This document shows positions 1-21,446 of a stretch of 21,938 bases of DNA, piece by piece. The stretch's first letter is position 1. Each line of letters starts with the position of its first letter. The translations under genes were made by a program, and so were the position numbers. The stretch is from a virus. The stretch covers positions 2,701 through 24,638 of the IMG/VR virus record IMGVR_UViG_3300008111_001051. The stretch is one strand, 5' to 3'. The notes under the pieces were generated by a model. That model was not told where the DNA came from. It searched no databases and worked only from the letters and a program-made list of their open reading frames with translations.

Positions 1-344
1 CGTTAAATGATGGTGCTACAGGCCCTATTAACATTACAGGTTTTAAATCTTATTCACTGTTAAAAGTTCAAACAAGTGCCGCTTCATGGGTAAGAATTTA
101 TGTCAGCGAATCAGCAAGACAAGCAGATGCTAGCAGAGCAGAAGGTGTTGATCCAAGTCCTGGTGCTGGTGTTATTGCAGAAATTATTACCACAGGTGCT
201 GAAACTATTTTAATTAGTCCTGCAACAATAGGATTTAACGACGATGATCCAGTAACAACAGATATTCCTGTAAGAGTAACTAATAAGAGTGGATCAACTG
301 CAACTATTACTGTAACACTTACATTATTACAATTAGAAGTATGA
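1..344 (+). CDS. Virion structural protein, C-terminal part (5' truncated)
   Basis: The reading frame enters from the left edge (first full codon at position 3) and stops at TGA 342-344, giving 113 residues of a longer protein. The segment is rich in Thr, Ser, Val and Ile and reads as beta-strand structure, with the phrases SYSLLKVQTS, WVRIYVS, GVIAEIITTGAETILISP and TNKSGSTATITVTLTLLQLEV. Similar C-terminal modules are familiar to me from structural proteins of T4-like marine phages, which suggests a virion or tail-fibre component; this is recall, not a search. The stop lies one base before the next ATG (346), so it belongs to the same late cluster as the two proteases. Where its N-terminus and domains begin cannot be seen. 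Confidence 0.75.
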   Translation, partial: LNDGATGPINITGFKSYSLLKVQTSAASWVRIYVSESARQADASRAEGVDPSPGAGVIAEIITTGAETILISPATIGFNDDDPVTTDIPVRVTNKSGSTATITVTLTLLQLEV

Positions 345-345
345 T

Positions 346-2886
346 ATGGCAATTTACAGACATTATGTGGTCACTCTTAAAAATAAGAGTGACCTAGAAC
401 AATTCTACCAAGACATGGAAACAGAGGGGCAATTTGAATTTGCCCCTTCTAGATCTGTTGAATGCGTTCATAAAAGAAATATAAGTCGAAACACTCACTA
501 TCGTTTAACTAATGCTGAAGCAGAAATATTAAGACAAGACCCTCGAGTACAGGGTGTTGAGCTAGATATACAAGAAACTAATCTAGTCAACGAACTCCAT
601 GCTGTGCAAACAGGTACATTTAGTCGAGCAACTGAACCTACTATTGGACAACGTAACTGGGGTTTATATAGATCTGTTTTAAGAACTAATCCAGAAAACT
701 GGGGTTCTGAAACTTCACTAACAGAAAAAACAGCCAGTGTTAATTTTACCGAAACTGGACTTGATGTTGATGTTGTTGTATTAGACGACATTGCATATCC
801 AACACATTTTGAAATCAATGGAAAACTTACACAGTATGATTGGTATGCCAATCATGATGCTGCGGTTCGTGGTGCAGCAGTTAGCATTACTAACGTTGAA
901 AGAGACAGTAGCAATAGAGCCACAGTAACTACCAACGGAGCACACAGTCTTGCAGTTGGAATGATTGTCACCGTTACCTGTACCAGTGACGCAACTTATA
1001 ATGCCACAGATGTTGCAATAACTGCTGTGTCAGCTAGTATCAACGGTGGTATTGTTGATAAGTTTAGATATGCCAATACTGGATCACAAGAAAATACTAA
1101 ATCTGCTACAGGTACATGGGTTGGTAAGTACAAATATTATACAACCACACCCGGAGACAGCTACACTGGCGCAAATAATCATGCTACTCACGTGGCCGGT
1201 ATCATAGCAGGTGAAAATCAAGGATGGGCCAAAGATGCTAACCTATTTAATTTAAGACATGATACTGCAAACTATGACTTAAATCCTTCATCAGCTAATC
1301 AATATACTCCCCTAGGTTATGTTATTGACTACCTTCGTGCATGGCATAACAACAAAGGCAACAGCAATCCTACAATAGTAAATTGTAGCTGGGGGTTAGG
1401 TACTAGAATTATTGGAAAAAATAATCCTTACACAGGTAACATAAAATCTAGATTTAGTGAAATTAGATACCAAGGTCAGACAATAACTCCACAAAGTCTC
1501 GGAAACCCAGAAGTTGACACAGGGTATTCTGGAGTATGTAGTGCTACTGCAAGATTAGCTACACTTCAATCAATAGTAAATGGCGGTAATAGAATTGCCA
1601 CTGTGTCAGGAAGTGCTACAGTGGACACATTAGCAAAGAATATACTAGGTAGAACAGGCATGACTTTAGTAGGAGCTCCTACTGGATCAAGCCCAACTGG
1701 CGTAGACGAATACGACGATGCTGCTTGGCAAATTTCGTTGCCGTTTGACATTTCCTATTTAGGTACTACATACGGCCCATCTCAAATTGGTGCTGATCCT
1801 AACCTAGGTACTATATGGATTAGTTCAAACAGTTTTGTACTATTTGGTGGTAGTGCTGCCGGCTGCTATACTGTAACAGTGGGTGCAGAAGGTCCTGCTG
1901 CTAGAAAAATACATGTTTCAGCTGGAGATAGAAGCTGCCAGAGAATATACACACAAACCAGCGGAACAACTCCAAACAGAACATTTAGAGTGCGTTGGGA
2001 AGGACACGATGCAGCCAATGGTGGTGTAGACGATGCTCCTACAGTAGTTTGGGAAATGACGTTCTACGAATCCTCAGGCAGCGGCAGTGGTGTAACTAAT
2101 GCTACGGTTGACCTACATATAGATCAAAATTCAAACTATAGAGGTGAATTCACTACTCAGCAATTATTATCCTACGGTGTTAATATCAATTATAATAATT
2201 CTCCACAGCGCAATGCTGCCTTTGAAGCAGACATGGATGATGCTATCCTTGACGGAATTATATTTGTCTGTTCTGCAGGCAACGATGCTCACAAAATAGA
2301 TCTACCTGGTGGACAAGACTACGACAACTATTTTGTAGATAACGGAATACCTTATTATTATCACAGAGGTTCAACACCCGGAGCACATCCTGATGTTATA
2401 TGCGTAGGTGCGCTATCTAGCTCAAGTGCAGAATATAAGATGCAGGCCAGTAATACTGGTCCCAGAGTAGATATCTATGCTCCAGGTATGAATGTTATTT
2501 CCGGAGTATATGACGGATCTGGTGATTCAGGTCCCACAAGTTCAGCGACGACTGTTGTTGAGAACGGTTCTACATATCAAAAGTACAATGGTTCAAGTAT
2601 GGCCACTGCACAGGTCACTGGATATCTTGCACTAGTATTAGAAAAATATCCTGCATTTACTCAAAGTCAAATTAACACATATCTGCTGTCACATGCAACT
2701 TTTGGAAAAATGTTTGAAACCTATGATGGCTACAATGATGTAACATCACTGCAGGACGGAAACAACCTTATACTTTATTATTTTAAGGACAGGGCAGAAC
2801 AGGGAACAGTATTTCCTTCTTATGCATTAGGCGCAAGACCTACTGACGGGCAAACTTACCCTAGAGTTAAAATAAGAAGAACATAA
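346..2886 (+). CDS. Subtilisin-like serine protease (S8), virion-associated, paralogue 1
   Basis: This 846-residue protein has all four S8 active-site signatures: Asp147 in VVVLDDIA, His279 in NHATHVAG, the oxyanion Asn646 in SAGND and Ser751 in GSSMATAQ. Residues 1-75 resemble an I9-type propeptide (YVVTLKN near the start, DPRVQGVELD at the end), which would act as folding chaperone and inhibitor. No signal peptide is visible, so it probably acts in the infected cell or on the particle. Compared with the next gene, it carries an extra beta-rich module (about residues 176-258) between Asp and His. A further beta domain (about 460-625) separates His from the oxyanion Asn. The start at 346 is supported by AGAAG six bases upstream. 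Its place between structural genes suggests a tail-associated protease or processing enzyme; the substrate is unknown. Family call strong, role inferred. Confidence 0.9.
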   Translation: MAIYRHYVVTLKNKSDLEQFYQDMETEGQFEFAPSRSVECVHKRNISRNTHYRLTNAEAEILRQDPRVQGVELDIQETNLVNELHAVQTGTFSRATEPTIGQRNWGLYRSVLRTNPENWGSETSLTEKTASVNFTETGLDVDVVVLDDIAYPTHFEINGKLTQYDWYANHDAAVRGAAVSITNVERDSSNRATVTTNGAHSLAVGMIVTVTCTSDATYNATDVAITAVSASINGGIVDKFRYANTGSQENTKSATGTWVGKYKYYTTTPGDSYTGANNHATHVAGIIAGENQGWAKDANLFNLRHDTANYDLNPSSANQYTPLGYVIDYLRAWHNNKGNSNPTIVNCSWGLGTRIIGKNNPYTGNIKSRFSEIRYQGQTITPQSLGNPEVDTGYSGVCSATARLATLQSIVNGGNRIATVSGSATVDTLAKNILGRTGMTLVGAPTGSSPTGVDEYDDAAWQISLPFDISYLGTTYGPSQIGADPNLGTIWISSNSFVLFGGSAAGCYTVTVGAEGPAARKIHVSAGDRSCQRIYTQTSGTTPNRTFRVRWEGHDAANGGVDDAPTVVWEMTFYESSGSGSGVTNATVDLHIDQNSNYRGEFTTQQLLSYGVNINYNNSPQRNAAFEADMDDAILDGIIFVCSAGNDAHKIDLPGGQDYDNYFVDNGIPYYYHRGSTPGAHPDVICVGALSSSSAEYKMQASNTGPRVDIYAPGMNVISGVYDGSGDSGPTSSATTVVENGSTYQKYNGSSMATAQVTGYLALVLEKYPAFTQSQINTYLLSHATFGKMFETYDGYNDVTSLQDGNNLILYYFKDRAEQGTVFPSYALGARPTDGQTYPRVKIRRT

Positions 2887-2897
2887 GGATTAGCAGT

Positions 2898-5891
2898 ATG
2901 TCAATGAAAGAATATGCAGCTAAAAAAGAATACATTGTAACTCTTTTTAAGCACGAAGATTTAGATCAGTTTTACAATGAAATGGAAAACCAAGGGGGCA
3001 AGGGATATGTTCCCGAGCGAGCAGTTGCAGTTATAGAAAGAAGAGACACTAGTAGAAATACACACTATTGGCTTACTGAATGGGAATCGTTAGAATTAAG
3101 AAAAGATTCTCGAGTAAGAAATGTTTGTCTTCATCCAAGATATCTAGGTATTAGTGCAGGTTTAACTGTGTTGCGAGAGCAAACATCTAGCAACTGGAAT
3201 AAAAGTTCTAGTACAGGTAACACTATGCTTAACTGGGGACTCCTTCGTTGCTACGAGGGCGAGGACAGGGGTGGTTGGGGTAGTAATGGTACTAACAATC
3301 AAACTGGCACAATTAAATTACCTGCAACAGGAAAAAATGTTGATGTTGTTGTTGTAGACGGTGACGGTATAATTTTTGGTCACCCAGAATATACTGTAAA
3401 CGCAGACGGCACTGGTAGTTATAGATCAAATCAATATAACTGGTTTCAGCATGACCCTGTTGTAAAAGGATCGGCAGCTAGTAACTATTCATACAGCATT
3501 TCAGATCATGCCACACATGTCTCTGGAACAATTGCCGGCAACACACAAGGTTGGGCTAGAGAAGCAAATATCTATAACATTTATTATTATGCTGGTGCAG
3601 TAGGCAATAATAATTTTCCCTATGTCATGGATTATGTAAGAGAGTTTCACAAAACTAAATCTATAAATCCTGCCACAGGGCGTAAAAATCCTACAATAAC
3701 AAATAATAGTTGGGGAATGAGTATCTTCCCCAGTGAGTGGTCTTTTGGTGACATAACTGCCGTAACATATAGAGGAACTCGATATACGCCAAGTGGTGCT
3801 GTGACTTTTTTAGGTGTCAGCGGCGTTTGTACTTCTAATGCTAGACTAGCACAGCTCAACGGATTTGAAAATCATGGTAATAGAATTACCACTACTGGTC
3901 CATATACACCACCGGGTCCACCGGGCGGTAGTATCCTTTCAATTCCAGAAACCTGGTTACAGCAAGGTCAGCAGGCATATATTACGCTCGTCGGAGCCAC
4001 TGGCCCTGATCCAGAGTATCAAGTGTTTGTTCAAGGTCCAGCTGATATCAATATTCTCAACAATACTGCCATTGACGTAGTTTCAGGAGCAATGAGTCTA
4101 ACCAGCGGAATTGAAATTTATGAAGGTGCTAATCCTGTTCCTATAGCAACATTCAGTGACGGTCCTTATAGTACAACTAATGGTGGAACTGTTGAAGCGT
4201 TAATTGAAGAATTCAATATTTCGTTGCCAAACTTTGAGCAGTATATTATAAAGTTTACGTCAGCTATAGTTCTAGAAGACGCTAGTAATCCAACATATGC
4301 TACTTCAATGAGTGTAACAGTTATTACAGAAACAACTCCAGCAACTGCTAGTGTAACTACTATTACTAACTCGCTGTTGGGCGCGGCAGCTCTTACACCA
4401 GCTATAACACCAAGCCTTGGCAATAACGATGACGGTTATTGGAATCTTACATTACCATTTAATATAACATATCTCGGTGCAACTTATACTACTATCTATG
4501 TGGGAACAAATTTTTATCTTACATTTACTGACGGGTCTACTATATATTCTGGTATCAGTGTATCTTCCCCAAACTTACCAAAAATAATGTTGTGTTGCGG
4601 TGATAGATCTGTGCAGAGAATTTACTATGGTGTAGAAGGAGCTGAAACAGCAACGTATACAGTTACTAATTCAGGAGCAAGTTCTTATACTATTAACTCA
4701 TCAGCTAATCCTACATTGACATTAGAAAGAGGCGGAACCTATACATTTAATGTCAGCGCCAGCGGTCATCCTTTTTGGATTAAAACTGCCCAAGTCACCG
4801 GAACTGGCAGCGCATATAGCACGGGAGTAACTAACAACGGAACTCAATCTGGTACTATAACATTTACAGTGCCTAATGATGCTCCTTCTACACTTTACTA
4901 CATTTGTCAAGTCCATAACGTTATGACTGGTGTTATAAATGTTATAGCAGGATCAAGAACTTACAGAGTACGTATGGAAGGATCAACTGGTACTACTGGA
5001 ACACTCGGTAGCCCTACTATGGTCTGTGAATATGTATTCTACGAAGCTACACCAGATCAGATTGATCTACAAATTGGCAGCAATGCAGCAAAGAGTTCAG
5101 GTACAGGATTTAGTACAGAACAGTTGAACACTTGGGGATTTATTTCTGGTCAACGAATTCCTAAACGTGTTGCTGCACTAGACAGTGATATAGAAGACGC
5201 TATCCAAGAAGGAATTATGTATGTCGGTGCTGCCGGTAACGGTCGTTGGAAACATTGCCTACCTGGTGATCCCGATTGGGACAATACTTTTGAAATGGCT
5301 ACTAGATATCCAGGTAGTGTTGCAGAACCTTACTATTACATGAGAGGAACTAGTCCAACAGCCAATGACGTATTTGATCCGCAAAGGCCAGTTGGCGACC
5401 AGGGTTATAACATACCAAATATCTGTGTTGGTTCTATAGATGTAACCTCAGGTGATTACAAAGCATCTTACAGTGATTGTGGTCCTGGTGTAGACATATG
5501 GGCACCGGGCACTAATATTATTAGCTCACTGACCAGCGGAGTAAATGATTCTAGAAGTTCGGGTACTACTTACTATCTAGGAAAATTTAGTGGAACTAGC
5601 ATGGCCAGTCCGCAGGTCTGCGGTGTGTTAGCCTGTGCTCTGGAAAACAATCCTTTTTGGAATCAAACACAAGCCAAAGAGTATATATTAAGTGTAGCTA
5701 AAAATGGTCAGATTACTGCTACTAATGGTGGCCCTGCAGATACTACAGATTTACAAGGTGCACCTAATAAGTTCTTGTATTATAAAAGAGAACGTTTAGA
5801 CACAGGAACAATGGTACCTAAACAGGCGGTTGGCGCTAGACCTACTACAGGAGCTGCATGGCCAAGGAGTCGAATACGTAGGTTCCGATAA
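2898..5891 (+). CDS. Subtilisin-like serine protease (S8) with inserted cupredoxin domain, paralogue 2
   Basis: This 997-residue S8 protease is a tandem paralogue of the gene before it, 11 bases away. The active-site residues are Asp154 (VVVVDGDG), His204 (DHATHVSG), Asn781 (AAGNGR) and Ser901 (GTSMASPQ). The N-terminal 80 residues match the I9-like propeptide of paralogue 1, sharing SRNTHY and a closing run of Leu-Arg-x-Asp-x-Arg-Val. Between His and Asn lie a Pro/Gly linker (PPGPPGG), a beta-rich insert of about 150 residues, and the beta domain shared with paralogue 1 (LPFNITYLGATY). That beta domain is split by a plastocyanin-like domain at about residues 580-692. The start at 2898 follows AAGGAT; Met at 2904 is an alternative. 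Possible roles are virion maturation, tail-tip digestion of surface protein, or structural use of the fold. Catalysis looks intact. Confidence 0.9.
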   Translation: MSMKEYAAKKEYIVTLFKHEDLDQFYNEMENQGGKGYVPERAVAVIERRDTSRNTHYWLTEWESLELRKDSRVRNVCLHPRYLGISAGLTVLREQTSSNWNKSSSTGNTMLNWGLLRCYEGEDRGGWGSNGTNNQTGTIKLPATGKNVDVVVVDGDGIIFGHPEYTVNADGTGSYRSNQYNWFQHDPVVKGSAASNYSYSISDHATHVSGTIAGNTQGWAREANIYNIYYYAGAVGNNNFPYVMDYVREFHKTKSINPATGRKNPTITNNSWGMSIFPSEWSFGDITAVTYRGTRYTPSGAVTFLGVSGVCTSNARLAQLNGFENHGNRITTTGPYTPPGPPGGSILSIPETWLQQGQQAYITLVGATGPDPEYQVFVQGPADINILNNTAIDVVSGAMSLTSGIEIYEGANPVPIATFSDGPYSTTNGGTVEALIEEFNISLPNFEQYIIKFTSAIVLEDASNPTYATSMSVTVITETTPATASVTTITNSLLGAAALTPAITPSLGNNDDGYWNLTLPFNITYLGATYTTIYVGTNFYLTFTDGSTIYSGISVSSPNLPKIMLCCGDRSVQRIYYGVEGAETATYTVTNSGASSYTINSSANPTLTLERGGTYTFNVSASGHPFWIKTAQVTGTGSAYSTGVTNNGTQSGTITFTVPNDAPSTLYYICQVHNVMTGVINVIAGSRTYRVRMEGSTGTTGTLGSPTMVCEYVFYEATPDQIDLQIGSNAAKSSGTGFSTEQLNTWGFISGQRIPKRVAALDSDIEDAIQEGIMYVGAAGNGRWKHCLPGDPDWDNTFEMATRYPGSVAEPYYYMRGTSPTANDVFDPQRPVGDQGYNIPNICVGSIDVTSGDYKASYSDCGPGVDIWAPGTNIISSLTSGVNDSRSSGTTYYLGKFSGTSMASPQVCGVLACALENNPFWNQTQAKEYILSVAKNGQITATNGGPADTTDLQGAPNKFLYYKRERLDTGTMVPKQAVGARPTTGAAWPRSRIRRFR
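4640..4965 (+). other. Cupredoxin-like (type-1 copper) domain inside paralogue 2
   Basis: Protease residues about 582-690 form a compact beta unit beginning TYTVTNSG and ending MTGVINVIAGS. It contains the usual cupredoxin elements: a strand followed by GGTYTFNVSASGHPFWIKT, then a C-terminal strand ending YYICQVHNVMTG. The likely copper ligands are His624, Cys670, His673 and Met676, which is the His/Cys-x2-His-x2-Met pattern of type-1 sites with a short final loop. In paralogue 1 the flanks corresponding to QRIY and FRVRWEG are joined by only about 10 residues, so the domain is a clean insertion here. Copper binding is inferred from the ligand pattern. Similar domains occur as add-ons in marine phage structural proteins, from general knowledge. 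Confidence 0.75.
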
Positions 5892-5934
5892 ATTATAGTT
5901 CCATTTTTAGGTAAATACATAAAACGGAGCTATG

Positions 5935-8900
5935 ATGGCATTATCTATTTGGATTCAAGATTCTGGCTACAGTTTTGGTATTCGACAAGAACGCGAAACT
6001 GTAGACATAAATTTACCCACTAATAATACGCCCGGAGTTACATTTTCTGTAATTGCGGGCAAACTTCCCCCCGGGTTAAGAATCTCTGGATATAAAATAG
6101 TAGGAACACCCTACGAAGTTCCTCGTACTACTGAATTTAAATTTGTAATAAGAGCCACTGCTACATCCGGAATAAGCGATAGAACTTTTTACATGACGGT
6201 TGCAGGAGCAGATGAGCCTCAATGGATATCACCGTCGGGCCCATTACCAGTCGGCTCAAATAACGCATATTTTGTTCTAGAAACAAGTTATATTGATTTT
6301 CAATTAGGTGCGTCTGATACCGATACTGCTGTTGGACAAAAATTAAATTATTTTATAGCCAGCGGAGAAGGAGAACTTCCTCCAGGTCTATTAATGACCA
6401 GCAGTGGCAGAATAACAGGTTTTATACAGCCGTTGCTACAGATTCCTGCTAAATCAGGTAACGGTCCTTTTGATACAGATCTCTACGACAGCGTAGCCTA
6501 TGACTTTGGATTTAGACCGTCAAACGGATACGACTCGTTTGTCTACGATTCAACTGTTTTTGACTTTTTTGTACCTACAACTAAACCTAGAAAGCTAAAC
6601 AGAAACTACGAATTTATAGCCACTATCACTGACGGTGATACTGTTAACAAACGCAAGTATAGAATATTTGTAGTAGGAGATGATTTCTTTAGAGCAGACA
6701 ATACTATTACTAGCTCAGGTAGCGGAACTTTTACCGCTGACGTTACTTATGTAAGAACGCCTATCTTTACCACACCGGCTAACTTGGGAATTAGAAGAGC
6801 TAACAACTATCAAACTTTTAAAATAGATATTTTTGAAGGATTTACAGATTTAGGCCCAATTAATTTTAGTTATTGTGATGTTAATGCAAGGATCAGCGGT
6901 ATTGTAAGAAAAGAATCTGCATCTGATAATAGACAAGGTTTAAATTTTATAAGGTTTGAAAGAGCTTCCGATGTTCCAAAAATAGGACAATTTGTAAGCT
7001 TTGCTGGCGACTTTCCAGGCGCGACTGGAAAAACCTATGATATCATAGGCGTAGATACCGTAGGTGGGGACACTTACAGGATTACTGTTATTCCTAACCT
7101 TGACATGTCTATTCCAGATAGTACAGCAATCTACATTGGTGATAAGAGTAAACTACCTCCCGGTATGAGTTTCGATGGAAACACTGGAGAAGTATTTGGT
7201 GTTGTACCTTACCAATCAGCAGTGACTAGAGAGTTTAATTTTACTATTAAAGCAACTAGGTTTGGTCAAAGCAGCGAAACTGCATCTAGTCGAAGACTGT
7301 TTACTGTCAAAATATTAGGCGAAGTTGAAAGTGTAATGACATGGAACAGTCCTAGCAGCCTCGGCAGTATTAATGCTGGATATGTCAGTGACTTATTTGT
7401 CCATGCAACTAGCACATTTAGTCCGCAGATTTTATATCGAGTAACTAGCGGTAAACTGCCAGCTGGTTTAAGTTTAAACTTTGATGGTGAAATAGTTGGT
7501 AAAGTAAACGAGGTTAACGATCAAGTAATATATAAAAGCTACTGGAAACCTAGCAAAAATTATGCTGTAGGAGATGTAGTAAAGCAAGACAATACTGCTG
7601 AAATTAGATCTATAATAAGAAGAAAAAACATAGCTACAGTTGTAACTACTACAGATCATAATTTTAAAAACGGAGCATTGACTAAAGTTATAACTGACAA
7701 TGACAGTTTTAATTTCTACGATTCAGTAAAAATAAATTTAGATCCTGTCAAAGTGTTGTCAGTAATAGATAAAGAACAAACCGGATCAATTTGGAGAGTA
7801 AAATTTGATATTGTTGATCAAAATTTAATGCCATTGGCTCCAGTGTTTACTCTAGCAGAAGGCAATGCTATATCAACTAGCAGTTTTGTTTGGCCAGTTG
7901 TTTCTGCATCTTCTACATCCGGAACTGGAACTGGAGCAGTATTTAGAGTTGAAAAAGTTTCTAATTTAATAAATCCTATATACAGAGGTGTTACTACAAT
8001 TAAATTAATTGATCCAGGTGTAGGATATAAGCCTGGAGATTCTATTACTGTCAGTGGTAGCCAACTTGGCGGAGTTGACGGGCTTCACGATTTAACATTT
8101 GTTACTTCATCGGGGTTAGAATTTTACTATGAAATACGTGGACAAAGTACCAGTACCTATAACGGAAGATGGCTGGCATTGTCAAGTACTATCGATAGCC
8201 TTACACTAGGCTACCCCAATGATCCAGGATTCTTTGGTTCTGGTATTATTGGTGTAAGCGTTGGTATAGCATCATTTGAAGGACAAACGCAGGTTCTTCC
8301 ATTAAATTATTTCAGCTACGAAAACAAAGGCAGAACTACAACAATGGCCAAAGCCATTGGATCAGCAACAGCTAGCCCTAGTTATTATAAATCAAATGAA
8401 GCTCACAATAGCGGATTATCTTTTGATCCAATTAAATGGGACCTTTATGAATTCCCTGTTACTGATTTAAGTCTTACTGCTATTGACGGAAATACTTTTA
8501 TTTTAGATGGTGCAAAAAACACTACTACGTTTGACAGAGAATACACATTCACTGTTGAAGCTGCTGATCCTTTGAGATTTAGTGCAGTAGAAAAAACATT
8601 TACATTAACAGTAGAAACACCAAACGATGTAAACTACAGCAATATTACAGTTAAGCCTTTCTTAAAACCAAATCAGCGAGAACTTTTTAAATCATTCATG
8701 AATAATGTTAATATATTTGATCAGAAATATATCTACAGACCCTACGATAAAAGTTATGGTATACAAAAAGATCTGCGTATGTTAGTCTATGCAGGTATAG
8801 AAACAAGACTGGCTGCAGAATATATCAGTGCCATGGGCAAAAATCACAAGGCAAAAAGATTCAGATTTGGTGAGATTAAATCTGCGGTGGCTAAAACGAC

Positions 8901-11026: not shown

Positions 11027-11527
11027 ATGAAATTTGACAAATACAAAAATCCGATCTTTGAAGAAAGGGACCTAATCAATCTGATATATCAAAATCAGTT
11101 TGATAAACTGCAAGGTCTTATCTGTGATGACACTGATGATATCAAAAAACTTTCCCAATTTGAAGATATACTGTTAACTAACAACATTGACAGAGAATAT
11201 CCTGTTGAAGATTTTGATCAAGCACTTCAACAAAATTGGTTAATGCCCGATGAATATAAAAACATGGACATCGAAGGATTTCTTGTAAATCAGTGTCCAA
11301 AAGAAAATTATCAAAGACTTATAGACGAACTTCAAGAATACAGAGCAAGAAATATGTTAAATCTATTACGCTGGCTCAAGTATTTTGTTGATACCTGCCG
11401 AAAAAACAACATAGTATGGGGAGTTGGTAGGGGTAGTAGTGTAGCCAGTTATACGCTATATCTGCTAGAAGTACATAAAATAGACAGTTTGAAATATAAT
11501 TTAGACTGGCGTGAATTTTTAAGATAA
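11027..11527 (+). CDS. DnaE-like (DNA polymerase III alpha) fragment protein
   Basis: The protein has 166 residues. Its C-terminal third resembles the start of the palm region of bacterial replicative polymerase alpha subunit: a helix (LRWLKYFVDTCRKNNI), then VGRGSSVASYTLYLLEV and IDSLKYNLDWREFL. This corresponds to the E. coli DnaE segment containing GPGRGSGAGSLVAY and DPLEFDLLFERFL. GRGSS lies at residues 134-138. The protein ends where DnaE continues towards its first catalytic Asp-x-Asp, so it cannot be a polymerase by itself. The N-terminal part is acidic and lacks a visible PHP motif. It has no Shine-Dalgarno sequence and is preceded by a promoter-like element. Possible jobs include binding nucleotide or DNA, or interfering with host polymerase III; both are inference. 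Similar short proteins may exist in other marine T4-like phages. Confidence 0.65.
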   Translation: MKFDKYKNPIFEERDLINLIYQNQFDKLQGLICDDTDDIKKLSQFEDILLTNNIDREYPVEDFDQALQQNWLMPDEYKNMDIEGFLVNQCPKENYQRLIDELQEYRARNMLNLLRWLKYFVDTCRKNNIVWGVGRGSSVASYTLYLLEVHKIDSLKYNLDWREFLR

Positions 11528-11776: not shown

Positions 11777-12151
11777 ATGAACGTAGTTAAAGGAAATATC
11801 GTCCCACTTCGGGATAATATATTAGTCGCTGACATGAATTTCGAAGAGCAAACTACTGCCAGCGGAATTATAATTCAAAGCGATGATGGTAAAAGCCACG
11901 GAGTTAAACCCAGATGGTGTCGAGTGTGGGCTATTGGTCCTGACCAACACGATGTAAAAGTTGGAGAATGGATTTACATTGAACACGGCCGTTGGACACG
12001 AGGCATCAAAGTTGATGACAATGGCAACGAGATTATAATTCGAAGAGTTGATACAAACGCAATTTTACTCCGAGCTGATGAACGCCCATCTGATGCGTAC
12101 CTGGGCATGGACAGCGGAACTGCTCCGCCGGTTGAAGCTTACAGGGTATAA
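11777..12151 (+). CDS. groES: Co-chaperonin GroES-like (functional analogue of T4 gp31)
   Basis: The protein has 124 residues. The N-terminal part (VKGNIVPLRDNILVADM), the region where the GroES mobile loop is expected (EQTTASGIIIQSDDGKSHGV), and the strand GEWIYIEHGRWTRGIKV match the GroES beta-barrel order. A co-chaperonin caps the host GroEL ring; in T4 the gp31 protein is needed to fold the major capsid protein gp23, and the same job is likely here. The protein is about 25 residues longer than bacterial GroES, with an acidic/Pro-containing tail after ILLRADERP. The start ATG at 11777 has GAGG seven bases upstream. The stop at 12149-12151 abuts the start of the MazG-like gene at 12153. Confidence 0.85.
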   Translation: MNVVKGNIVPLRDNILVADMNFEEQTTASGIIIQSDDGKSHGVKPRWCRVWAIGPDQHDVKVGEWIYIEHGRWTRGIKVDDNGNEIIIRRVDTNAILLRADERPSDAYLGMDSGTAPPVEAYRV

Positions 12152-12152
12152 C

Positions 12153-12521
12153 ATGACTAATCCATTTAGAGATCAAGAGAAGTTTATGCGAGCCTGCGAT
12201 CAAACAGTAGGCGAAAAAAACATTAGTCAATATACAATGTATTATGGGCTAATCAAAGAAGAAGTTGCAGAACTCATGCAGGCCCATAGTCAAGGCGATC
12301 AAATAGAACAGCTAGATGCACTTATAGACATTCTAGTAGTTACTGTTGGTGCTATACACAGCATGGGTGCAGACGGCGAAGGCGCTTGGAAAGAAGTCAT
12401 GAAAACAAATTTTGCCAAGATCAATAAAGAAACTGGTAAAGTTCGTAAGCGTGAAGACGGTAAGGTATTGAAACCCGTAGGGTGGGTGCCCCCGGAGTTA
12501 AGACAGTATTTGTCTAAATAA
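12153..12521 (+). CDS. mazG: MazG-like nucleotide pyrophosphohydrolase
   Basis: The protein has 122 residues starting MTNPFRDQEKFM. ATG 12153 is chosen because AGGG lies six bases upstream and the frame before it only overlaps groES. The helix pair KEEVAEL (Glu37, Glu40) and EQLDALIDIL (Glu52, Asp55, Asp59) gives the ExxE...ExxD magnesium site of the all-alpha NTP pyrophosphatase superfamily (MazG, dUTPase-2, HisE). Members hydrolyse NTPs to NMP and pyrophosphate; phage versions have been proposed to adjust nucleotide or alarmone pools. The C-terminus (VLKPVGWVPPELRQYL) is an additional conserved-looking tail. The gene ends four bases before a terminator hairpin, closing the groES transcript. 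The exact substrate cannot be read from sequence. Confidence 0.8.
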   Translation: MTNPFRDQEKFMRACDQTVGEKNISQYTMYYGLIKEEVAELMQAHSQGDQIEQLDALIDILVVTVGAIHSMGADGEGAWKEVMKTNFAKINKETGKVRKREDGKVLKPVGWVPPELRQYLSK

Positions 12522-13257: not shown

Positions 13258-14137
13258 TGGTTATGTATGGCGTGATGAATTTCAAAAGAAAACAGTACTG
13301 TCTTGGATCAAAGATAAAAGCATACCGCATTTACTGTTAAGTGGTAGTCCAGGCATTGGTAAAACTACTATGGCTAAAATGGTTCTCCACGAAATGGAGA
13401 TACCAGAATATGACATTTTAGAAATTAACGCTAGTCGTGAACGTGGTATTGGTGAAGTACGACATCGAATTACAAACTTTATTCAGATGATGCCTTTTGG
13501 TCCATTTAAAGTAGTGTTGTTAGACGAAGCTGACGAACTTACTCCAGATGCCCAGGCAGCAATGCGTGGAGTAATGGAAGAGTACGCTAGCACCAGCAGA
13601 TTTATTTTAACCTGTAATCATCAAAATAAAATTATACCAGCTATTCATAGTCGTTGCCAGCAGTTCCACTTTGAGAAAATTGACGCTACTGAATTTACAG
13701 CTCGTGTAGCTACTATCCTAGTTGAAGAAGGTGTAGAGTTTGATTTAGATACACTAGATACTTTTGTTAAAGTAACCTACCCAGATCTACGCAAATGTAT
13801 CAATCTTGTACAGCAAAACACCCAAGAAGATAAACTAATAAAACCTAATACCAATGATATTGGCACATTAGATTATCGTATTGAAATGGTTGAGTTGTTT
13901 AAGAAAGGTAAGATAAACGAAGCTAGAAAACTGCTGTGCGGTAAGGCTAGACCAGAAGAGATGGACGATATCTATCGTTGGATGTATGATAATATTGAAT
14001 TGTTTGGCAAAGATGAACAAACACAAGACTCTGCTATCCTTACTATCAAACAAGGATTAGTTGATCATACACTGGTTATTGATCCTGAAATCAATTTGGC
14101 TGCTACACTTATTAGACTTGCGAGACTATCACAATGA
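13214..14137 (+). CDS. 44: Sliding-clamp loader large subunit (T4 gp44-like AAA+ ATPase)
   Basis: The protein has 307 residues, close to T4 gp44 (319). In order it shows [11 protein letters not shown] typical of RFC/gp44, Walker A GSPGIGKT (residues 44-51), Walker B VVLLDEAD (100-107), the sensor-1 Asn135 in TCNHQ, and the SRC motif (146-148). It would form the ATPase core that loads the gp45 clamp on primed DNA for the phage polymerase. The start at 13214 has AAAGGA upstream and lies within the preceding gene. In T4 the small loader subunit gp62 follows directly; here a ferredoxin gene follows with a four-base overlap, and no gp62-like gene is in the window. Confidence 0.92.
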
Positions 14138-14457
14138 CACATTTAGTAACTGAAAATTGCATTAAGTGTAAACACACTGACTGTGTTGAAGTGTGCCCCG
14201 TTGACTGTTTTAAAGAAGGGCCAAACTTTCTTGTTATTGATCCCGACGAATGTATTGACTGTGGTGTTTGTATTCCAGAATGCCCTATTGATGCTATTGT
14301 TCAAGACAATGATGTTACTGTTGACGTTGTATTTTGGAATGAACTTAACACTAGGTTAAGCAAACAGTGGCCTTCAATTACCAAAAGAAAAGATGCGCTG
14401 CCTGATGCTGCCGAGTGGAAAGACAAGCCTAATAAGATCGATCTCCTAGAAGAATGA
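14134..14457 (+). CDS. fdxA: 7Fe ferredoxin (FdxA type, [3Fe-4S][4Fe-4S])
   Basis: The protein has 107 residues, the usual length of bacterial FdxA/Azotobacter FdI-type ferredoxins, and follows them from the start ([20 protein letters not shown]). The Cys pattern is complete. By comparison with FdI, Cys9, Cys17 and Cys50 would bind the [3Fe-4S] cluster, and Cys21, Cys40, Cys43 and Cys46 the [4Fe-4S] cluster; Cys12 and Cys25 are extra. The C-terminal helix region ([20 protein letters not shown]) is also typical. It is a low-potential electron carrier; the partner could be a host reductase or a phage oxidoreductase elsewhere in the genome. It sits by four-base overlaps between the clamp loader and dCMP deaminase genes, so expression with DNA synthesis is implied. 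Likely acquired from a bacterium. Confidence 0.92.
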
Positions 14458-14960: not shown

Positions 14961-14984
14961 AAGGGCTCCGAAGAGCCCTTTTTT
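14959..14984. terminator. Bidirectional hairpin terminator between dCMP deaminase and phoH
   Basis: The stem AAAAGGGCTC (14959-14968) pairs with GAGCCCTTTT (14973-14982) around a CGAA tetraloop. It has A's on the left and T's on the right, so it can stop transcription from both sides. Here the plus-strand early operon and the minus-strand phoH gene converge; the left arm begins inside the deaminase stop codon and phoH stops at 14983. Confidence 0.88.
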
Positions 14985-15708
14985 ATTCGTCACCGTATAA
15001 GTTTAGAACTTCTGCGACTGCTCTGTGTCTTTCGATATCTCGTTGATCAAAGCGCACAACATCAATGTGTTGGGTTTTGCGTCCTTCAATCTTTCCGATA
15101 AAATCGATAAGTCCATTATCTTTTAATCTATCTGCTTGGGCTAAATCTCCTGTAACGACCATGGTGCTGTTTTCACCTAGTCTAGTTAGTAACATTTTCA
15201 TTTGATTCTGCGTGGCATTTTGCATTTCGTCTGCTATGATATAAGCATTCTTAAATGTGCGTCCACGCATATAAGCAAGTGGGCTGATTTCAATTGTGCC
15301 ATCTTCAAGCATGGCGGCTATCTCTTTAGTCTGATAGTATTCTCCTAAAACATCAAAAATAGGTCTTGTCCACGGAGCCATCTTTTCATTAAGCGTACCT
15401 GGTAAGAACCCAATATCTTCATCTACGGAAACGGCGGGTCTTGTTACTATGATTTTATCAATTACACCTTCTTGCAATAACTTAATCCCGTTTAAGACTG
15501 CCAACAGAGTTTTACCCGTGCCTGCTGGGCCGATAGCAAACACGATGTTCTTATGATCATCTTGTAGCTTCTGTAGGTATGTTTCTTGGTTCTTATTGCG
15601 AGGTAGTAGTGCAACTCTACGCTTCTTTTGAGGCACAGTTTGGTGCGATTGGAAGTCAATCACATTAACATTTGAAGTAAAACGTTTTTTTACGCGGTTT
15701 TTACTCAT
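14983..15708 (-). CDS. phoH: PhoH-like ATPase
   Basis: The protein has 241 residues. It has Walker A GPAGTGKT (residues 60-67), PhoH signatures IIVTRPAVSVDEDIGFLPG and PLAYMRGRTF, Walker B IIADEMQN (Asp160, Glu161) and TGD (186-188). An N-terminal basic segment of about 40 residues precedes the ATPase core, and residues after about 200 form the usual C-terminal helix region. PhoH proteins are related to the ATPase part of superfamily-1 helicases; the role in phages is unsettled and may concern RNA metabolism or the phosphate-stress response. Ribosome site GGGAG lies upstream of the ATG. It is the only gene here on the minus strand and is transcribed alone between a terminator and a divergent intergenic region. 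Confidence 0.92.
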   Translation of the reverse strand: MSKNRVKKRFTSNVNVIDFQSHQTVPQKKRRVALLPRNKNQETYLQKLQDDHKNIVFAIGPAGTGKTLLAVLNGIKLLQEGVIDKIIVTRPAVSVDEDIGFLPGTLNEKMAPWTRPIFDVLGEYYQTKEIAAMLEDGTIEISPLAYMRGRTFKNAYIIADEMQNATQNQMKMLLTRLGENSTMVVTGDLAQADRLKDNGLIDFIGKIEGRKTQHIDVVRFDQRDIERHRAVAEVLNLYGDE

Positions 15709-20044: not shown

Positions 20045-20054
20045 CATTTGTATG

Positions 20055-20083
20055 TTGACATTGTCAGTTTTTTAATATATAAT
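20055..20083 (+). promoter_or_regulatory. Consensus sigma70 promoter, early operon 2 (leaderless dnaJ)
   Basis: Perfect TTGACA (20055-20060) and TATAAT (20078-20083) are 17 bases apart, and the dnaJ ATG (20090) is again six bases after the -10. No Shine-Dalgarno sequence precedes it. The element is identical in geometry to the promoter at 12533. Confidence 0.85.
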
Positions 20084-20089
20084 AGTGCT

Positions 20090-20941
20090 ATGGATTACTA
20101 TAAAATTTTAGAAGTTAACGAAAACGCATCTTTGGATGAAATAAAGCGATCTTACAGGAAGCTTGCAGCCAAACATCATCCCGATAAAGGTGGTGATACG
20201 AAAAAGTTCCAAGAAATATCACAGGCCTACGATACATTAAGCGACCCTGATAAAAAATCTATCTACGATGCAGAAAAGAACGGACAGGGGTTTGGACATG
20301 CTGGCGCAGGGCCGGGATGGTTTGATGTTGGTGCTATGTTTGGGCAGGGATTTGGAAGAGGACATCCTTTTGAAGAAATCTTTAGGCAAGGTCAGCGTCG
20401 AGCTAAAAATCGTGATTTAAATATCAACATACGAATTGCCTTTGATAAAAGTTATACCGGCACAGAGTTAGAAGCCAATTACAAATTGCCATCCGGTAAA
20501 AATCAAAATGTACTGATTAAAGTACCGCCGGGTATACAAAGTGGTCAAACTATTCGATACACTGGCATGGGTGACGATAGCATACTCCAGTTGCCCCGTG
20601 GTGATTTACTAGTCACTGTGGTTGTTGAACCAAGTCAAATATACGAACGATTAGGCGATCACCTTATTGCCTATGTTGCAGTTGATCCATTTGAAGCCAT
20701 GCTAGGATGTACTAAACTAGTAGAAGTTCCGGGTGGTAAAAATATAAGATTTAACCTGCCCCCGGGTGTTGATCCGCACAGCGATTTTGCATCTGCAGGG
20801 TTAGGTTTCAAAAACATAAACAGTAACTTTCACGGAGACCTTATTATTAAAATTAAAATGCAAATCCCGGCAGTAAAAGATCCGGACCTTAAAGATAAGC
20901 TAGAAAAATTATATGCTGAAATTAGTCTCACATCCAAATGA
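20090..20941 (+). CDS. dnaJ: DnaJ-family (Hsp40, type II) co-chaperone
   Basis: The protein has 283 residues from ATG 20090; a TTG upstream in frame (20048) is ignored because it precedes the promoter and because J-domains start MDYYKILEV. The J-domain (residues 1-65) has the essential His30-Pro31-Asp32. A Gly/Phe-rich linker (GQGFGHAGAGPGWFD, MFGQGFGRGHPFEE) follows, then the C-terminal substrate-binding domains (LNINIRIAFDKSYTGTELEA, IKVPPGIQSGQTIRYTGMGD, VDPFEAMLGCTKLVEVPGG). There is no Cys-rich zinc domain, so it is CbpA/type II. It would stimulate host DnaK and deliver unfolded phage proteins. First gene of early operon 2; its end overlaps deformylase by 29 bases. Confidence 0.9.
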   Translation: MDYYKILEVNENASLDEIKRSYRKLAAKHHPDKGGDTKKFQEISQAYDTLSDPDKKSIYDAEKNGQGFGHAGAGPGWFDVGAMFGQGFGRGHPFEEIFRQGQRRAKNRDLNINIRIAFDKSYTGTELEANYKLPSGKNQNVLIKVPPGIQSGQTIRYTGMGDDSILQLPRGDLLVTVVVEPSQIYERLGDHLIAYVAVDPFEAMLGCTKLVEVPGGKNIRFNLPPGVDPHSDFASAGLGFKNINSNFHGDLIIKIKMQIPAVKDPDLKDKLEKLYAEISLTSK

Positions 20942-21446
20942 TATATTAAACAGACCTATGCCGGAATTTGATTTTGATAATCCGGCAATGGATCCTAAAG
21001 ACCTAGAAGAAGAAATGGTCAAACTTATGTATGCTGAAAACGGTATTGGGCTTGCCGCACCACAATGCGGAATAGAAGCTCGAGTGTTTACAATGTACAC
21101 AAGAAATCTGCAGGGCGTAACAGAACCCTTTGCAGTATTCAATCCTAAAGTTATTGCTACCAGCGATGACGAAACTCAAGACTACGAAGGCTGTCTGAGT
21201 TTTCCAAATCTGCTGTTAGCAGTAAGACGTCCAGAAAACATTGTAGTCGAATTTTTTGACAGAGATAAAAATCCTGTTATAATAAGACTTGACGGCATCG
21301 ATGCAAGATGCTTTTTACACGAATTAGATCATTTGAATGGCGTATGCTTTATTTCTAAAGTAAGCAAATTCAAATTAGATTTAGCTATTAAAAAACAAAG
21401 GAAACGTAATGGTAGAACCCAGCAGCGAGCTTCAGCTAGTATTTGA
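20913..21446 (+). CDS. def: Peptide deformylase
   Basis: The protein has 177 residues. All three deformylase motifs are present: GIGLAAPQ (44-51), EGCLS with metal ligand Cys94, and HELDH with ligands His136 and His140 and catalytic Glu137. It removes the N-formyl group from nascent proteins. The C-terminus (RKRNGRTQQRASASI) is basic and overlaps the following gene. The start ATG 20913 lies inside dnaJ (29-base overlap) and gives the expected MLKLVSHPND. Phage deformylases occur in several marine phages and may support high rates of phage protein maturation or, as proposed for cyanophages, turnover of photosystem proteins; the latter does not apply here, as no photosystem gene is seen. Confidence 0.92.
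   Translation: MLKLVSHPNDILNRPMPEFDFDNPAMDPKDLEEEMVKLMYAENGIGLAAPQCGIEARVFTMYTRNLQGVTEPFAVFNPKVIATSDDETQDYEGCLSFPNLLLAVRRPENIVVEFFDRDKNPVIIRLDGIDARCFLHELDHLNGVCFISKVSKFKLDLAIKKQRKRNGRTQQRASASI

Follow-up and report, generated by a model that had tools for sequence, protein, structure and literature searches.

An optional cassette in a subtilase gene of a lake phage is predicted to encode a cupredoxin-fold domain, which may carry copper on the tail region of the virion. The window, by which we mean the whole stretch of DNA analysed, covers 21,938 bases of the IMG/VR virus record IMGVR_UViG_3300008111_001051, which is 24,638 bases long, and harbors two adjoining, paralogous subtilase genes sharing 42% identity in pairwise alignment. 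Paralogue 1 (346-2886, + strand; 846 amino acids; Pfam PF00082; e-value: 8.7e-33) is cassette-free, while paralogue 2, encoding protein 2 (2898-5891, + strand; 997 amino acids; PF00082; e-value: 5.4e-22), carries the cassette at 4641-4955 (+ strand; residues 582-686; 315 nucleotides in frame), as delimited by the structure model, by fold matches in the PDB and by the empty site of a cassette-free contig, L158. We are highly confident that residues 582-686 constitute a cupredoxin-fold domain with a predicted copper-competent site, and the cassette is quite probably an optional accessory module. Taken as a whole, the best explanation is a copper-loaded attachment module, borne as an optional cassette on a tail-region subtilase, to which we give a rough probability of 0.55.

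Predicted fold of the inserted domain

The structure of residues 576-693 was modelled from 49 aligned domains (that of the window and viral relatives, 34-99% identical), yielding a beta-sandwich of eight strands with a mean predicted local distance difference test (pLDDT) score of 91. When this model was compared against the PDB with Foldseek, the best 50 of 75 matches (e-value ≤ 0.001) were all cupredoxin-fold copper proteins, led by AcoP (e-value: 2.3e-6) and also including rusticyanin, plastocyanin, amicyanin, pseudoazurin, nitrite reductases, laccases and a CuA domain. VIA-align placed the rusticyanin variant 2cal at the top (Z: 10.4; root-mean-square deviation: 2.3 Å; 95 residues; 23% identity), with nitrite reductase and small laccases (Z: 9.4-10.0) tied with it within 1 Z. 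Over most of its length, the modelled domain thus agrees with solved cupredoxins as a Greek-key beta sandwich. A cupredoxin domain had been proposed for this protein by a first-pass annotation, and the predicted beta-sandwich and its fold matches bear that proposal out; a non-Greek-key outcome did not occur.

Sequence comparison by itself makes a weak case for a cupredoxin, pointing the same way as the fold. A profile of the 49 domains returned nine matches among PDB sequences at e-value ≤ 10, all of them copper proteins and the best a copper nitrite reductase (e-value: 0.009), and its hhalign comparison with a plastocyanin-family (PF00127) set of six, drawn from seven pattern-found stretches in 15 loci, aligned Cys, His and Met in register (probability: 86; e-value: 4.8e-6). 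Against NCBIfam, 17 of the 49 members weakly matched amicyanin (TIGR02657, the commonest; best e-value: 0.013) and six weakly matched rusticyanin (best e-value: 0.0059), and the Copper-bind family PF00127 was weakly matched by 16 (best e-value: 0.0012). A phmmer search of PDB sequences with the single domain returned nothing at e-value ≤ 10. A search for SoxE (PF06525) found it in one of eight genomes and was not used further. Full-length protein 2, modelled from 12 sequences, reached a pLDDT of 45.8, and a PDB fold search with this model gave no usable match; it is too poor for the position of the cassette relative to the active site to be read from it.

Conservation of the predicted copper ligands

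The first-pass annotation had pointed to His624, Cys670, His673 and Met676 as standing in cupredoxin order, and a script run on the 997-amino acid open reading frame (ORF) confirmed their positions. The codons, all on the + strand, lie at 4767-4769 (His624, first predicted ligand), 4905-4907 (Cys670, predicted thiolate ligand), 4914-4916 (His673, second predicted His ligand) and 4923-4925 (Met676, predicted axial ligand). The spacing is H-x45-C-x2-H-x2-M, with SGHPF around H624 and YYICQVH around C670. The sequence accordingly has the order His, Cys, His, Met/Gln and a loop of the form C-x(2-4)-H-x(2-4)-M, the spacing rule for type-1 copper sites.

The quartet is conserved in relatives. Among 52 distinct domains (51 in addition to the query, drawn from 88 hits at 80 viral loci), H624, C670 and H673 are each present in 52/52 and M676 in 51/52, the Met of the sole exception being shifted one residue later. 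This near-invariance, at identities down to 34%, argues that the quartet is not due to chance. Of the 52, 49 entered the domain alignment (A1); the sequences of L032 and L075 are interrupted by a stop, and L069 was left out.

A broader ligand census was limited to segments no shorter than 75 residues, of which 261 were distinct and 48 gapped at a ligand column (L081 and L226-L241 left out); 150 sequences represent them at ~85% similarity. It started from chosen queries, one of them ligand-free, and its proportions are therefore not natural frequencies: 116 of the representatives have H-C-H-M and three H-C-H-Q, one lacks the first His only and 30 lack the Cys. A Cys is in every case accompanied by the second His and an axial Met or Gln (120/120 representatives; 70 viral, 50 cellular). 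The 30 Cys-less representatives include 11 with a His in the first ligand column, four with a His in the second and one with the Met. Most of them (26/30) belong to one sister group of tail-type proteins marked by a GWH motif, such that few independent ligand losses are counted; two others are L037 and L133, and L113 and L143 end ahead of the metal loop and are uninformative on ligands. The metal loop is present or absent as one unit, as a single metal site predicts.

In the alignments with the rusticyanin structures 1rcy and 1e30, positions 6-108 of the model pair with 34-155 of the chain, a range that gives the aligned ends only. These ends would allow the four residues to occupy ligand positions, with C95, H98 and M101 of the model corresponding to the rusticyanin ligands Cys138, His143 and Met148; in 1rcy, the C-terminal offset of 47 would set model Met101 (Met676) on Met148, the axial ligand.

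The ligand set varies among the relatives. The whole Cys-His-Met loop is missing from the GWH sister group (L242-L271), and one protein of P-SSM7 (L142) contains both a ligand-bearing and a ligand-free copy. Two phage sequences (L282, L307) and an Acidobacteria contig (L086) have Gln for the axial Met in an otherwise intact set, a swap familiar from stellacyanin.

Insertion site and turnover of the cassette

The cassette borders were read against contig L158, in which the site is empty and holds four residues. The cassette stands in place of a 12-nucleotide (four-amino acid) loop of cassette-free relatives, and the paralogues align there as QRIY-TQTSGTTPN-RTFRVR (paralogue 1) and QRIYYGVEG-[105 aa]-RTYRVR (paralogue 2). 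The paralogue alignment and a pair of contigs, L004 and L158, uphold the earlier proposal that the insertion fell in a loop of which paralogue 1 has a short version. An insert is indeed present within the borders first proposed for it, 4640-4965, but those ends were off by 1 and 10 nucleotides. Similarly, the insertion does lie in a phage protease, but the alignments assign the loop that takes it up to a beta domain distinct from the subtilase fold itself. This beta domain (~4395-5087, + strand; residues ~500-730; limits approximate) runs from LPFNITYLG...QRIY through the cassette to RTYRVR...FYE, is common to both paralogues and, judging by sequence, would lie between the parts with the catalytic His and Ser. 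Protein 2 as a whole scores 78.9 bits against the subtilase family (PF00082, peptidase S8), for which the cut-off is 21.8.

To trace the cassette, the protease alignment was used as the query of a scan, which yielded 80 further loci. From all viral loci collected by then, 80 distinct complete proteases of at least 600 amino acids were aligned, including the two of the window, and 77 were used, L067, L134 and L136 being set aside as carriers of a C-terminal domain that is not alignable there. The cassette occupies the same loop in 21 of the 77 (with near-copies among them: four window-type, four L014-type and six L171-type), and exactly four residues stand there in the other 56, ending in Pro-Asn in 42/56 (TAPN, SAPN type). 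Asp154 (3357-3359, + strand) and His204 (3507-3509, + strand) of protein 2 are kept in 77/77 proteases, Asn781 (5238-5240, + strand) in 75/77 and Ser901 (5598-5600, + strand) in 74/77, the remainder being gaps; we take these four to have the catalytic roles in the subtilase. They are kept with or without the cassette, which makes the domain look like an accessory.

On a protease tree built without the insert, the cassette trait changes at least nine times when only strongly supported branches are counted, although this tree warns of long branches meeting (L160 with the L171 group) and both trees are quick ones with support from the Shimodaira-Hasegawa-like approximate likelihood ratio test (SH-aLRT) only. 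The domain tree (100 columns, 135 rows, many unresolved forks) does not unite the protease copies, and implies eight changes, of which three are forced by starred branches. The scatter of the protease copies suggests, at this low resolution, that there may have been more than one donor.

Contigs L004, with the cassette, and L158, without it, form a natural near-isogenic pair. They share 99.78% identity over 3,997 nucleotides upstream and 99.45% over 4,010 nucleotides downstream, and differ at the site by 315 versus 12 nucleotides, in frame. There are no mismatches in the final 443 nucleotides ahead of the border, while three occur within 21 nucleotides downstream of the cassette and three at 166-177 nucleotides (21 in total in 4,006 nucleotides), and one further mismatch lies inside the last four bases of the cassette. 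This pattern would suit homologous recombination with a relative, in which one version replaces the other, better than a clean excision. The four residues of L158 at this place, SAPN, agree with the consensus of empty family members, making an assembly error less likely.

Phages without the cassette may or may not keep the domain in another gene. Within the fetched stretches of the protease scan, a copy elsewhere was found in 0/56 cassette-free and 1/24 cassette-bearing loci, but in five loci obtained via the domain itself (L009, L010, L012, L013 and L024) a cassette-free subtilase stands beside another carrier.

Distribution of the domain in phages and cellular organisms

Relatives of the domain (e-value ≤ 1e-3) are found in 359 of 50,697 phage records (276 Synechococcus, 52 cyanophage, 21 Prochlorococcus and 10 others), many of which are isolates of the same few phages. 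With relatives in so many records, and in many tail and baseplate proteins, the domain is not unusual among phages, contrary to the expectation of the first-pass annotation. The annotations of 60 rows spread through the 359 comprise 48 gp9-type baseplate wedge tail fibre connectors, the other 12 being tail fibres, a tail pin, hypothetical proteins and the subtilisin-like protease of S-H9-1. The gp9-type copy is present in cultured cyanophages. Matches in BFVD include phage S8 proteases and tail fibres, and the PHROGs classes of the carriers are tail (baseplate connector, wedge, tail fibre, minor tail), head-and-packaging and unknown. Judging by sequence, the module is promiscuous, and the protease is one of the proteins that house it. 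Since Pfam offers at most DUF4352 for the window domain and PHROGs names only the carriers, many proteins could be re-annotated.

A scan of cellular contigs yielded 52 loci in Bacteroidota, Pseudomonadota, archaea and others, several of the carriers having, by eye, lipoprotein-like N-termini. Five cellular carriers were compared against Pfam, and one showed CHRD together with a short Cu-oxidase_2 match outside the domain and another collagen repeats; collagen repeats also occur in two of four viral carriers scanned in the same way. In PS1/OCS116-type marine bacteria (L083, L085, L087, L090 and similar), proteins of ~430 amino acids contain two side-by-side copies with full ligands.

Proposed role of the domain and alternative explanations

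To be optional and to be spread over different tail proteins is how the immunoglobulin (Ig)-like domains of phages behave, and by analogy the cupredoxin domain may be an accessory like these decorations, adding weak attachment to the host surface. We suggest that one copper ion is bound at its site once it has left the host cytoplasm, supplied by the water or the host envelope, and that the copper fixes the ligand loops. Loading outside the host is assumed because free copper is scarce in the host cytoplasm, where phage proteins fold. The cassette itself would move between phages by recombination via the conserved flanks of the loop. The strict ligand set implies that the metal matters too, and attachment as the job of the domain is put forward tentatively, as a somewhat doubtful part of the whole.

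Several points weigh against the copper-loaded attachment module. The first His is out of register in the hhalign comparison with the plastocyanin-family set, and the window domain has no match at e-value ≤ 1 among the Pfam copper families, including PF00127. Its match to the NCBIfam amicyanin family is weak (e-value: 0.086 or 0.13) and far under the cut-off. Its best Pfam match is DUF4352, which is not a copper family, with 26.0 bits against a cut-off of 25.9 for a 118-amino acid version of the domain, falling to 25.3 for a 140-amino acid version and 19.9 for the full protein, in an alignment that stops ahead of the metal loop. Protein 2 is probably a tail-region protease of the virion, an assignment drawn from neighbouring genes and from homologues annotated as tail or baseplate proteins. 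Finally, the strict four-ligand site exceeds the needs of a plain adhesion module, which weakens attachment as the function.

A more far-reaching formulation leaves the mode of action wider, with a mobile type-1 copper cassette being swapped in exposed tail and protease loops of many aquatic tailed phages, loaded with copper outside the host, and acting through metal chemistry, whether redox or copper-dependent binding, in adsorption or particle survival. We regard this, in its full extent, as rather unlikely. If working blue-copper domains do stand on the tails, phage particles would carry stoichiometric copper. Were the site loaded, phage tails would be a class of copper-protein carrier that we found named nowhere, and copper in the water could affect phage adsorption or decay. 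Among the titles and the beginnings of abstracts listed in searches of the open-access literature, with subscription journals mostly outside its range, no such domain on phage particles is described, and a search of the same literature for a eukaryotic link (DOMON, DM13, plastocyanin) found nothing.

A redox or antioxidant role is unlikely. The copper site on the particle would here alternate between Cu(I) and Cu(II), scavenging superoxide or accepting electrons at the host envelope, and so protect or trigger the particle in sunlit water. The full type-1 set is kept, beyond mere metal-binding residues, the closest folds include the electron-transfer proteins rusticyanin, AcoP, plastocyanin and amicyanin, and the three representatives with Gln for Met are in keeping with such a role. 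The domain nevertheless sits in many different proteins, and no common redox partner was noticed in the annotated loci, in which no systematic search for one was made.

The frequent gain and loss of the cassette, at least once recent, and the sister group that keeps a related domain without ligands, from which it follows that the fold alone can be useful, would also suit a mobile beta-sandwich spacer with no copper role, whose ligands are kept only because its copies arose recently from functional ones. The ligands, however, persist in 116 of the 150 representatives (clustered at ~85% similarity), 120 of which have the Cys together with the second His and the axial residue, and we hold a mere passenger to be distinctly unlikely.

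A protease gated by copper, in which the metal in the insert switches the neighbouring enzyme on or off at the host surface, would account for the direct fusion of the domain to an intact subtilase. Further associations favor it, as the domain is C-terminal on the protease in S-H9-1, ACG-2014j and L067, is encoded in a gene adjoining that of a PF00082 protein in S-SSM7, and shares a locus with a cassette-free subtilase in L009, L010, L012, L013 and L024. However, 56 of the 77 proteases, including that of L158, which is near-identical to L004, keep their catalytic residues without the cassette, and the domain is on the subtilase ORF in only 13 of the 80 loci first fetched via the domain, leaving this mechanism improbable.

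An ordinary Ig-like or DUF4352 domain with a coincidental quartet, for which the 118-amino acid version just passing the Pfam cut-off could be adduced, is most improbable in the face of the cupredoxin fold matches (best 50 of 75) and an invariant or nearly invariant quartet. A phage plastocyanin (petE) was likewise rejected, the domain being fused and under the PF00127 cut-off.

Other features of the window

Both subtilases show further inserts. Residues 345-476 of protein 2 (3930-4325) form a second stretch that paralogue 1 lacks. The otherwise poor full-length model shows a beta domain here, with a local pLDDT of ~80-90, and carbohydrate-binding modules are among the fold matches of that model, in a search that was not usable as a whole. 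Paralogue 1 has an insert of its own between the Asp and His motifs (residues ~192-277; 919-1176), which is missing from paralogue 2. In L162, a 4.8-kb contig near-identical to the window, the frame of protein 1 is split in two, which may be an assembly error.

Among the 15 matches listed for paralogue 1, the nearest relatives are cyanophage proteins of <40% identity, and the clamp loader of the window, at 55.9% identity, is nearest to that of PA5oct-like Pseudomonas jumbo phages. When the window was compared with phages by megablast, no match was obtained. A promoter and terminator scan of 200-6100 returned 13 promoter-like sequences (18.3 expected) and four terminator-like sequences (3.3 expected), and nothing usable.

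A phage-encoded ferredoxin (14134-14457) matches Fer4 and DUF3470, in the manner of 7Fe ferredoxins. A 166-amino acid ORF (11027-11527) corresponds to part of bacterial DNA polymerase III alpha, preceded by a weak match, under the cut-off, to the C-terminal part of T4 RNA ligase 1, and looks like a fragment or a small fusion. Additional matches are to Cpn10 (11777-12151), PRA-PH (MazG-like; 12048-12521), PhoH (14983-15708), DnaJ (20048-20941) and peptide deformylase (20913-21446).

Comparison with known systems

The best structural matches of the window domain are the Acidithiobacillus cupredoxins rusticyanin and AcoP, at ~20% identity. These are free periplasmic proteins with a known role in electron transfer, and their ligand loops are longer (C-x4-H-x4-M). 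With amicyanin, pseudoazurin and plastocyanin (PF00127) the window domain shares the kinds and order of ligands, and its C-x2-H-x2-M loop is like that of amicyanin. They are, however, free carriers, whereas the window domain is a module of a larger protein and lies under the family cut-offs. Its first His is followed by Pro (GHPFWIKT), where the three carriers have Asn. In its modelled fold and its ligands the domain is that of a type-1 copper protein, with a predicted copper site, while falling short of the curated cut-off of PF00127.

Phages are known to encode a cupredoxin in another form, PetE being listed for 10 of 16 genomes in PMC3037559. The petE of marine cyanophages is likewise a phage-encoded cupredoxin, but it is a separate metabolic gene, whereas the window domain is a module of a tail-type protein. 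Closer in behaviour are the Ig-like accessory domains of phage structural proteins, which Fraser et al. are said to have treated in 2006. They are not known to have a copper site, and their fold is different. Such domains have been proposed, though not yet verified, to be weak binders of surface carbohydrates (PMC8718954). Like them, the window domain is an optional, promiscuous beta-sandwich module found at exposed places.

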